Source: Gemmatimonadetes bacterium T265 (GTDB lineage Bacteria > Gemmatimonadota > Gemmatimonadetes > Gemmatimonadales > Gemmatimonadaceae). Taken from it: a DNA stretch of 64,000 nucleotides. Of this stretch, positions 26,502-29,583 are shown piece after piece; the stretch's first letter is position 1, and each line of letters begins with the position of its first letter. The notes beneath the pieces are model-generated. The model was not told the DNA's origin, did no database searches, and saw only the letters and a program-made list of their open reading frames with translations. The translations under genes were made by a program, and so were the position numbers. Location: assembly GCA_019973575.1 (NCBI GenBank), contig BPUI01000001.1:806001-870000 (forward strand), written 5' to 3'.

Positions 26502-27002
26502 CTACCGCCGTCCGGGCCGCAGCGGCCGCAACACGACGCCGAGGCGCGCGCCGCCTCCGACGCCGGCTTCGATCGCCGGCACGACGCGCCCGAGTGGCCG
26601 TCCCTCAAGCCCGAGCCCCGCGAGGACGAACGTCCGGGGACGCGCCGTGCGTTCGACGCGGACCGCCAGGCCGCCCGTGGCGTAGATGCCGCGCGGCGCC
26701 TGGCGGAGTGGGTCGAGCAAGAAGCGGCCAATCCCGGCGACTTCGCCCACCGCGCGGCCTCCGCTCCCCGTCGTCGCCCCGACGCCCGCGACTAGGCCGA
26801 GGCGCGCGTAGAGCCCGGCGTCGCCTTCGAGCCCCGCGCTCAACAGGCCGAGGGTGTGCGGGCCGACGACGGCCGTCGCGCCCACGCTCGGCCGCAGGCC
26901 GAAACCCGCAGTGCGTGCCGTGCCCGGTTGCGCGCCCGCGACCCGTGCCACACCAACGACTGCGGCGAGCAGAGCCGCGGTCAGCGCGCGCGCTCGCGCC
27001 AC
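26502..27002 (-). CDS. Exported protein, possibly a small beta-barrel
   Basis: A 166-residue protein with a signal peptide ending near VAGAQPGTART. The mature part is Gly-rich with alternating hydrophobic residues (GLLSAGLEGDAGLYARLGLVAGVGA, FVLAGLGLEG, EAGVGGGARLGVVL), a pattern of short beta strands as in small outer-membrane proteins. The GTG at 27002 overlaps the end of the phosphatidyltransferase gene by 22 nt. No known family is recognised, and function is unknown. Confidence 0.55.
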   Translation of the reverse strand: MARARALTAALLAAVVGVARVAGAQPGTARTAGFGLRPSVGATAVVGPHTLGLLSAGLEGDAGLYARLGLVAGVGATTGSGGRAVGEVAGIGRFLLDPLRQAPRGIYATGGLAVRVERTARPRTFVLAGLGLEGRPLGRVVPAIEAGVGGGARLGVVLRPLRPGRR

Positions 27003-27538
27003 AAGAGCAGCGTGTAGTCCACCGTGGCCGCGATCGCGAGCAGCAGCACGGCCAGTACGAGCCACGGCGCGAGGCGCGGCACGAGGATGAGCGCGAACAG
27101 CGTCGCGAGCTGGAAGCCGGTGACGACCTTGCCGAGCGGGCGGGCGCGGAAGCGCACCGGGCGGAGCCAGGCGATCGAGCGTGCGACGAAGAAGCCGATC
27201 ACCGTCATCACGTCGCGGAGCAGGAGCGCGAACGCCTGCCAGAGCGTGAGCTCCCGGTGTGCCACGAACGTCGCGACGGCCGCGAGCACGAAGATGCGGT
27301 CCGCGATGGGGTCGAGCAGCGCGCCCCAGCGTGTGACCGCGTTGCGCCGTCGCGCGAGCCAGCCGTCGAGGAAGTCGGTGACTGACGCCACCCCGACGTA
27401 GGCGAGTTGTTGGGCCGGGCCGGTCGAGGTGACGAAGCCCGCGGCGAGCGCGACGCGCGACAGCGAGACGACGTTGGGCAGCGTCCACAACGTCGTCGAT
27501 GCCGGCGGGGCCGGCGTGGCGGCGGGGGTGGACGGCAT
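26981..27538 (-). CDS. CDP-alcohol phosphatidyltransferase (PgsA-like)
   Basis: A 185-residue integral membrane enzyme of phospholipid synthesis that moves a phosphatidyl group from CDP-diacylglycerol to an alcohol, often glycerol-3-phosphate. The family signature D-G-x2-A-R-x8-G-x3-D-x3-D is exact: DGWLARRRNAVTRWGALLDPIAD. Several hydrophobic helices follow. The start is ATG 27538, giving a normal N-terminus (LWTLPNVVSLSRVALA). The alcohol substrate cannot be decided from sequence alone, so no gene symbol is given. It is divergent from the AdoMetDC-like gene. Confidence 0.85.
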   Translation of the reverse strand: MPSTPAATPAPPASTTLWTLPNVVSLSRVALAAGFVTSTGPAQQLAYVGVASVTDFLDGWLARRRNAVTRWGALLDPIADRIFVLAAVATFVAHRELTLWQAFALLLRDVMTVIGFFVARSIAWLRPVRFRARPLGKVVTGFQLATLFALILVPRLAPWLVLAVLLLAIAATVDYTLLLWRERAR

Positions 27539-27664: not shown

Positions 27665-28015
27665 TTGCCCCCCGCGTTCACGCACTTGCTCGCCGACTTC
27701 GCCGGAGTTCCCGCCGTGCAGCTCACCGACCGCACGCTCGTGGGCGGGTTGATCGTCGCGGCGGCCGGTGCGGCGGGGTTGAGCGCGATCGCGGGGGCGG
27801 GCAGCCCGGTCGTGCGCACGCTGCCGTCGGGCGGAATTGCGGCCGCACTCCTCCTCGGGAGCTGTCACATCATCGTGCACACGCGCCCCGACGACGGCGT
27901 GCTGCTGCTCGACGTGCTCGCCCCGCAGGCGGGAGACCCGCGCAAGGCGGCCGACGTGTTCGCGCGCCGCCTGACCGCGCGCTCGGTGCACACCGAGGCG
28001 CACGCGCGCGGGTGA
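27665..28015 (+). CDS. S-adenosylmethionine decarboxylase-like protein lacking the pyruvoyl serine
   Basis: About 116 residues if started at TTG 27665; no ATG or GTG fits the homology and the start is uncertain. The sequence follows bacterial AdoMet decarboxylase (SpeD/SpeH) along its length: THLLADFAG, LPSGGIAAALLLGSCHIIVHTRPDDG, DVLAPQAGDPRKA and a VHTEAHARG end matching the family's VHVVEHERG. In active enzymes the cleavage segment is SESH, with the Ser becoming pyruvoyl; here it reads GSCH, so that position is Cys, and the later active-site Cys (FTCG) is also missing. The conserved His of HT is kept. Probably non-catalytic or repurposed. Its stop overlaps the next ATG (TGATG). Confidence 0.65.
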   Translation: MPPAFTHLLADFAGVPAVQLTDRTLVGGLIVAAAGAAGLSAIAGAGSPVVRTLPSGGIAAALLLGSCHIIVHTRPDDGVLLLDVLAPQAGDPRKAADVFARRLTARSVHTEAHARG

Positions 28016-29583
28016 TGGCCGCGGTCGTTGTCGTCCCGACGCTCGAACCCGCGGTGGCGGGCTACGTCGCCACCGCGCTGCTCGCCGTCGCATGGGACGT
28101 GACCTACGCGGGGCGCATCGCGCAGCTGCGCCGCGCGCCGCGTGCGCTCGCCTTCCTGAGCGGCGTCTGCGGCCTGCTCGTCGCGCCCGCCTACCTCACG
28201 CACATCGCGGGGAGCACGCTCTACGGCGGGCGCGCGGTGAACAGCGTGGCGTGGCTGTGGCCGCTCGCGACGTTGCTCGTGCTCGCGCAGGCGGCGTACG
28301 CGACGGGGCGCCGGCTCGTCACACCGCTCGTCGGCGTCCCGCTCCTCTTCTACGACCTGCTCGTCGCCGCGGTCGCGCTCGCGCGCTACCTCGTCGAGCG
28401 CGGGGTCGAGCCGCCGGGCGTGCTCCTCTCCCTCTCTGCGGCCCAGGCCACAGTGCTCGGCACGGTGCTCGGCGAGGCGGCGCTCGTCTCGCCGCTCGCG
28501 GTGCTCGTGCCGCTGCTCGTGCCCGCCTACCCCGCGCGGTGGCGGCTCACGCGGGCGACGCGGGCGCTGATCTCGGTGTCGGCCGCGTTCGTCGCCGGCG
28601 TGACGGCGCTGGAGTTGCCGCGCGCGACGGCGGCGGTCGGGAGCTACGCGCCCTACCGCGCGGAGCGGCTCAGCGAGCGCCCGAACGGCGACCTCGCGGT
28701 CGGGCTCGCGATGCTCACGCACCTGGCCGGGCCGCCGCCGGCGCTCACGGTGCGCAACGACGGCCCGCTACTCGACTCGGTCGACGTGGACGCCGTGCAC
28801 GTGAGGCTGCGGCCGGGCGGGCTCGCGCTCACCGCGCTCGACTCGCTCGCGGGCGTGCTCGAGCCGGCGCGGCGCGACAGCACGCTGCTCGTCGTCTCGC
28901 TCGACTACGATCCGGGCGACGCGGCCCGGCGGCGCGCTGACCCGGCGGGGTTCGACGCGCGGCGGCTCGCGCTCGTCGACCGCGCGGCGCGCGCGCTCCG
29001 CCCGGACATCCTGCTCCCCGCGGGCGCGCCCTATGGCGACGCTGCCGACGACGTGGGGCGCCTCACCCCGGCCGAGTGGGAACGGTTCCTGACCGCGGCG
29101 GCGGCGCGGGCGCACGCGGTCAACCGGCGCATCCGCGTCGCCGTGGCCGCGGGCGACTACGGCGCGGCCGACAGCACGCTCTGGGCGTGGGCGGCGTCGC
29201 GGGTGTCGTCACTCGACGTGGTGGGCTTCACGGTGCGGCCGTCGTTCACGGGCGCGGGCGGGGTGGATGCGCGCCTCCGTGCGGCCGAACGCTGGGCGCG
29301 CGCGGCGGTGGCGGCGCCCAACGCGCCGGCGCGGCCCAAGGAGCAGTGGGTGTTCGACGTACGGGGGTTTCCCGTCGCGCACGGGGCGGCGAGCCAGGAA
29401 GGCGTGGTGTGGCACACGATCGCCTGGGCGAGCGCGCGGCCGGGGGTGGCCGGTGTGCTCGTCGGCGAGCCCGGGGATTACACGGAGATGACCGGGTTGC
29501 GCGGGGCGAACGGCGCACTGCGGCCGGCGATCGGGGCGGTTCGGCGGGCGCTGCGGGGGTTGCGGGAAGCGGTGGCGCCGTAG
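28015..29583 (+). CDS. Polytopic membrane protein with C-terminal TIM-barrel-like domain
   Basis: A 522-residue protein. Residues 1 to about 205 contain six or seven hydrophobic helices. The following roughly 300 residues are soluble and alternate beta/alpha (STLLVVSLDYDPGD, RPDILLPAGAPYGDAADD, IRVAVAAGDYGAADSTLWAW, LDVVGFTVRPSF, EQWVFDVRGFP, GVAGVLVGEPGDY), the rhythm of a glycoside-hydrolase-like TIM barrel on the external face. I cannot assign a glycosidase family or catalytic pair. Translation is coupled to the AdoMetDC-like gene through TGATG, so the two proteins probably act together. Polysaccharide processing is only a guess. Confidence 0.6.
   Translation: MAAVVVVPTLEPAVAGYVATALLAVAWDVTYAGRIAQLRRAPRALAFLSGVCGLLVAPAYLTHIAGSTLYGGRAVNSVAWLWPLATLLVLAQAAYATGRRLVTPLVGVPLLFYDLLVAAVALARYLVERGVEPPGVLLSLSAAQATVLGTVLGEAALVSPLAVLVPLLVPAYPARWRLTRATRALISVSAAFVAGVTALELPRATAAVGSYAPYRAERLSERPNGDLAVGLAMLTHLAGPPPALTVRNDGPLLDSVDVDAVHVRLRPGGLALTALDSLAGVLEPARRDSTLLVVSLDYDPGDAARRRADPAGFDARRLALVDRAARALRPDILLPAGAPYGDAADDVGRLTPAEWERFLTAAAARAHAVNRRIRVAVAAGDYGAADSTLWAWAASRVSSLDVVGFTVRPSFTGAGGVDARLRAAERWARAAVAAPNAPARPKEQWVFDVRGFPVAHGAASQEGVVWHTIAWASARPGVAGVLVGEPGDYTEMTGLRGANGALRPAIGAVRRALRGLREAVAP

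Follow-up and report, generated by a model that had tools for sequence, protein, structure and literature searches.

SpeD-Like Gene and Its Distribution

The gene at positions 27665–28015 (+ strand) of the window, which is the whole 64,000-nucleotide stretch of Gemmatimonadetes bacterium T265 DNA analysed in this study, encodes a 116-aa protein that keeps the SpeD (AdoMet decarboxylase, AdoMetDC) fold and has lost the pyruvoyl serine. Rather than a gene in decay, the SpeD-like family is an old pseudoenzyme maintained by selection and passed on vertically within two families of a single Gemmatimonadota order. The protein is rather likely to be a dead SpeD/AdoMetDC-fold pseudoenzyme that serves in docking or dimerisation at the membrane.

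The ORF starts with TTG at 27665 and ends with the stop codon TGA at 28013–28015. In the profile search, PF02675 was matched over its full length (1–107 of 107) at 50.8 bits, where the cut-off is 25. This result and the predicted SpeD fold agreed with the start-to-end SpeD alignment claimed in an earlier sequence-only reading of this DNA. The score for the AdoMetDC equivalog TIGR03330 was 44 bits, under the cut-off of 75.65 bits. The whole T265 genome (5.63 Mb) contained one PF02675 match, which was this ORF.

Relatives of the SpeD-like protein were found by protein search in 69 of 149 related genomes. A scan of a genome collection of 84,980 species gave 39 loci, nearly all titled Gemmatimonadota, with Roseisolibacter and Gemmatimonas records among the named ones; the scan was built on the alignment of the window's family, Gemmatimonadaceae, and on one peptide pattern, and distant members elsewhere could be missed. 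As far as searched, the SpeD-like family occurred only in Gemmatimonadaceae and in a second family of the same Gemmatimonadota order. The gene-order analysis of 40 loci and the window showed that the genomic place of the gene was the same in both families. Several genera of Gemmatimonadaceae did not have the gene. Contig CALQGY020000001.1 (loci L138 and L155), titled Candidatus Kuenenia stuttgartiensis, had the gene order of Gemmatimonadaceae; it looks as if the record title is wrong or the bin is mixed.

The SpeD-like family was monophyletic with a support of 100/99 in a tree of few columns, whose inner order is uncertain. The dN/dS between close pairs was mostly 0.03–0.2, estimated with synonymous sites partly saturated. 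The SpeD-like protein is under strong purifying selection and is therefore a conserved pseudoenzyme. A chance ORF was rejected because of the presence of the gene in the related genomes and the collection loci, together with these dN/dS values.

Loss of the Active Site

The self-cleavage site Glu62-Ser63-His64 of T. maritima AdoMetDC is replaced by Ser-Cys-His in the window protein (codons at 27860–27868, +), with Cys for Ser63 at residue 67 of the ORF. The changes pointed out in the sequence-only reading, namely GSCH in place of SESH, absence of the later Cys and retention of the His of HT, were all seen. The active-site tally covered 56 aligned SpeD-like members (36 from Gemmatimonadaceae and 20 from the second family) and 19 canonical SpeDs for comparison. 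The pyruvoyl Ser position was occupied by Gly in 35 members, Cys in 20, Ala in one, and Ser in none, while all 19 canonical SpeDs had Ser. The Cys of the window protein was shared within Gemmatimonadaceae, where 20 of 36 members had it. Conservation of this Cys, which had been put forward as a point to check, was thus not found, and Gly was the commoner residue overall. The catalytic Cys (C83 of T. maritima) was absent from all 56 members, including the window protein. It was present in 13 of the 19 canonical SpeDs, and the other six had a neighbouring CC.

Further residues of the site were also changed. Glu62 was absent in most of the 56 members, and Glu72 was kept only loosely. F49 and W70 of T. 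maritima AdoMetDC are the aromatics that stack on AdoMet. Position F49 was variable among the 56 members. An aromatic residue at position W70 was found in 5 of 36 Gemmatimonadaceae members and 0 of 20 members of the second family, compared with 19 of 19 canonical SpeDs; it was lost in 51 of 56 members, and the window protein had Arg. His64, which follows the Ser position, was invariant in the 56 members, Asp79 was nearly invariant, and Pro71 was kept. The processing His68 was present in 51 of 56 members, including the window protein. His64 and Asp79 around the old active site have likely been kept for a structural role. Judged from these alignments, pyruvoyl cofactor formation by the known route would be impossible, so that decarboxylation of AdoMet, ornithine, or arginine is not to be expected of the SpeD-like protein.

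Predicted Structure and Helix α1

The three-dimensional structure of the SpeD-like protein was predicted by AlphaFold with a pLDDT of 95.3. The model matched T. maritima AdoMetDC (1vr7) with a Z of 19.6 and an rmsd of 1.5 Å. The closest structure outside AdoMetDC was the N-terminal domain of human spermine synthase (3c6k), with a Z of 11.1. A SpeD fold without the pyruvoyl Ser in a new role had been suggested from the sequence; the absence of Ser in every member, the retained fold, and the purifying selection all supported this suggestion.

Helix α1 (codons at 27734–27778, +, aligned to T. maritima residues 24–38) was rebuilt as an uncharged Ala/Gly/Leu surface. The number of polar or charged residues (DEKRNQH) per helix was 0.14 in Gemmatimonadaceae, 1.45 in the second family, and 4.0 in canonical SpeDs, so that the loss of charge occurred in both families. 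Helix α2 was unchanged with respect to canonical SpeDs. Comparison with the amphipathic canonical helices suggests that the apolar α1 may form a new contact surface.

Neighboring Membrane Protein

The TGA of the SpeD-like gene overlaps the ATG (28015–28017) of the next gene as TGATG. The next gene (28015–29583, +) encodes a 522-aa membrane protein, assigned from sequence, model, and fold search as six transmembrane helices followed by a C-terminal extracytoplasmic barrel. The overlap and the 522-residue membrane protein were both found where they had been described; the expression "translationally fused" used at that time was inaccurate, as the genes overlap and are not fused. The two genes are probably translationally coupled.

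The transmembrane helices occupied residues 12–209 and the (β/α)8 barrel residues 215–521, approximately. The model (pLDDT 93.7) showed six long helices and then the barrel. No Pfam family matched the window membrane protein at cut-off, and the search of the membrane-protein family sequences against PDB gave no match; the barrel was recognised by fold alone. The barrel was of the clan GH-A type, with a Z of about 25 to GH1 enzymes and an rmsd of about 3 Å over 280–290 residues, and GH113, GH5, and GH53 ranked high among the Foldseek hits. Positive charge was found on loops 1, 3, and 5 in the alignment of the membrane-protein family. By the positive-inside rule, the barrel is therefore most likely outside the cytoplasm. 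The confident model and this rule agreed with the extracytoplasmic β/α domain predicted in the sequence-only reading.

The catalytic Glu residues of clan GH-A are located at the ends of β4 and β7. At β4, Glu was found in the neighboring columns 337 and 338 in 11 of 35 and 4 of 35 sequences, respectively, and in neither column in the window protein. At β7 (column 448), it was found in 6 of 35 sequences and was absent in the window protein. Since Glu occurred only in a minority, the family in general is unlikely to hydrolyse by the usual mechanism.

Gene Neighborhood and Partnership

The membrane gene was located downstream of the SpeD-like gene in 38 of the 39 loci of the species collection, and the contig of the 39th ended too early to tell. 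Its start was −8 to +3 nt from the SpeD-like stop in 23 of these 38 loci, with start codons chosen heuristically. Among 89 Gemmatimonadaceae genomes, 38 had both genes, 6 the SpeD-like gene alone, 33 the membrane gene alone, and 12 neither. The genes were adjacent in all 38 genomes with both, but their co-occurrence was not significant (Fisher p = 0.19). No diverged SpeD-like copy was found upstream of solo membrane genes in 18 loci inspected. No membrane gene was found in the second family, where other genes follow the SpeD-like gene. In the loci of the second family (L082–L101), a DoxX-like gene was often 3′ of the SpeD-like gene and a cyclic-nucleotide-binding-like protein was encoded before it; these could be other partners.

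The membrane partnership inferred from the sequence agreed with the adjacency but was weakened by the solo genomes, the co-occurrence test, and the second family. Orthologues that retain the Ser and are not linked to a membrane gene had been named as evidence against the sequence-only reading; unlinked orthologues do exist, but none of them has the Ser. The partnership is plausible and not obligate, and the adjacency could be mere general conservation of gene order. Between loci L140 and L142, a close pair, the SpeD-like protein was 96% identical and the membrane partner 63%. Because of this difference in identity, the lack of the membrane gene in the second family, and the separability of the genes in Gemmatimonadaceae, the SpeD-like protein was considered to predate the membrane protein and to be under tighter constraint. 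The membrane protein often accompanies the SpeD-like protein but is dispensable.

The conserved divergent neighbor at 26981–27490 (−) likely encodes a CDP-alcohol phosphatidyltransferase, according to its own sequence; it belongs to syntenic cluster 5, with 30 members in the examined loci. This gene was kept here in most loci and apparently stays where the SpeD-like gene is lost. The PADLOC search gave no match, and the promoter and terminator scan found none.

Polyamine Genes

Polyamine genes of T265 were checked by single family searches. Neither a canonical spermidine synthase nor a second SpeD was found in the genome, and nspC gave only a match under the cut-off. The whole genome had one Spermine_synth match (L102, G000:C1:2496124-2496573, −), in a 1083-aa frame that also encodes a multi-transmembrane, MFS-type region. 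The earlier remark that no spermidine synthase is near was therefore borne out, the sole match of the genome being inside this large frame.

Canonical SpeD genes were seen elsewhere in the phylum. Locus L147 (8189–9630), from a different family within the class, had a canonical SpeD with intact ESH beside a convergent speE-like gene and so contrasts with the dead family. Canonical-type SpeD genes were near multi-transmembrane spermidine-synthase-like genes at L149 (4602–7558), L152 (4044–8339), and L154 (7909–12272). This arrangement resembles the PspA-linked operons of PMC11237479.

Proposed Role

The SpeD-like protein most likely acts in the cytoplasm, probably as a dimer, as a module for docking or regulation; human spermine synthase offers a parallel, since it is dimerised by a SpeD-fold domain without catalytic activity. 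The apolar α1 would most likely pack against another protein or a membrane surface. In Gemmatimonadaceae, the SpeD-like protein would be made together with the six-helix membrane protein and would probably contact its cytoplasmic loops, a contact suggested by the overlap of the genes. The membrane partner would then be an optional, family-specific addition and not the ancestral target. A more elaborate and rather doubtful form of this proposal is that the lineage-specific, free-standing SpeD-fold pseudoenzyme has become one member of a pair of degenerate enzymes across the membrane, in which the cytoplasmic side is the dead decarboxylase and the outer side a dead glycosidase barrel. The two would be docked via α1 and the loops of the membrane protein, and the pair might sense the condition of the cell wall or a polysaccharide.

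Other explanations were weighed against the docking or dimerisation module. The dead SpeD pocket might bind a small metabolite, such as AdoMet, a polyamine, arginine, or another amine, and signal to partners. The pocket may persist, with the SpeD fold, His64, His68, Asp79, and Pro71 retained; however, conservation is missing at F49 and W70 and loose at Glu72, which makes AdoMet itself an unlikely ligand, and no polyamine pathway that would need such a sensor was found in the T265 genome. A ligand-binding sensor is possible but unlikely. A persisting enzyme is very improbable. In that case, the Cys at the Ser position would form a pyruvoyl group and give a slow decarboxylase, as the Cys in the window protein and over half of the Gemmatimonadaceae members and the retained processing His68 might allow, but the other 36 of the 56 members have Gly or Ala at this site, and the catalytic Cys in all members and Glu62 in most are missing. 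A different, non-pyruvoyl activity that uses the invariant His64 is conceivable.

The dead protein could also activate a working SpeD by joining it in a heterodimer. This has a precedent in the dead AdoMetDC paralogue of trypanosomatids that activates its partner (PMC5201418), and in some relatives a canonical SpeD is present besides the dead one. It is nevertheless highly unlikely here, as PF02675 has a single match in T265 and in most relatives that hold the dead copy no other SpeD was seen; a prozyme was rejected on account of these genomes that hold the dead copy alone. The lowest probability was given to a functionless relic of the ancestral SpeD, in decay and kept only through its overlap with a needed downstream gene. 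Key residues are lost and several Gemmatimonadaceae genera are without the gene, as such a relic would have it, but the low dN/dS and invariant columns, the long persistence in two families, and the retention of the gene where no membrane gene follows all speak against it. The decaying relic was rejected on the selection measures.

The SpeD-like family is a clear natural case of a pyruvoyl enzyme that has no cofactor site and is yet strongly selected. The role of a SpeD fold without its cofactor becomes a testable question with two small genes. The results are also a warning for annotation: the dead genes exceed the PF02675 cut-off, so that an AdoMet decarboxylase may be ascribed to these genomes although they lack it.

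Comparison with Known Systems

SpeD-derived pyruvoyl arginine and ornithine decarboxylases are a published neofunctionalisation in which the self-cleaving Ser is kept (PMC10407285). T265 resembles these cases in having a SpeD homologue without a canonical SpeE in the genome, which was the criterion of those authors (PMC10407285), whereas the Ser is absent from every SpeD-like member here. The identity as an arginine or ornithine decarboxylase was rejected, the self-cleaving Ser being found in 0 of 56 members. The trypanosomatid AdoMetDC prozyme is a dead paralogue that works with an active partner (PMC5201418). It is likewise a catalytically dead AdoMetDC relative retained by selection, but it is eukaryotic, belongs to class 2, and requires an active enzyme, which the T265 genome, with its single PF02675 match, does not have.

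The SpeD fusions of Lentisphaerota and Desulfobacteria contain degraded C-terminal SpeD domains (PMC10407285). These are also bacterial SpeD domains without active-site residues, but they are fused to an active SpeD, and the dead protein here is alone. A family of bacterial SpeD pseudoenzymes that are free-standing proteins was not found in the part of the literature covered. The barrel of the neighboring protein is like clan GH-A (GH1, GH5, GH53, GH113) in its (β/α)8 fold and its Z, and differs from it in being membrane-anchored, in the unconserved β4 and β7 Glu, and in having no Pfam match at cut-off.

Bacterial class 1b AdoMetDC/SpeD (PF02675; T. maritima 1vr7/1tlu) is similar to the SpeD-like protein over the full-length sequence and in fold, with His64, Asp79, and mostly His68 in common. 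The SpeD-like protein differs from it in the lack of the pyruvoyl Ser, the catalytic Cys, and conserved stacking aromatics, in the loss of Glu62 from most members, and in the apolar α1. For human spermine synthase, the N-terminal domain is described in a review as the dimerisation domain (PMC11203672). This domain (3c6k) shares with the SpeD-like protein a non-catalytic SpeD fold; it is fused to an aminopropyltransferase, whereas the SpeD-like protein is free-standing and its gene adjoins a membrane gene.
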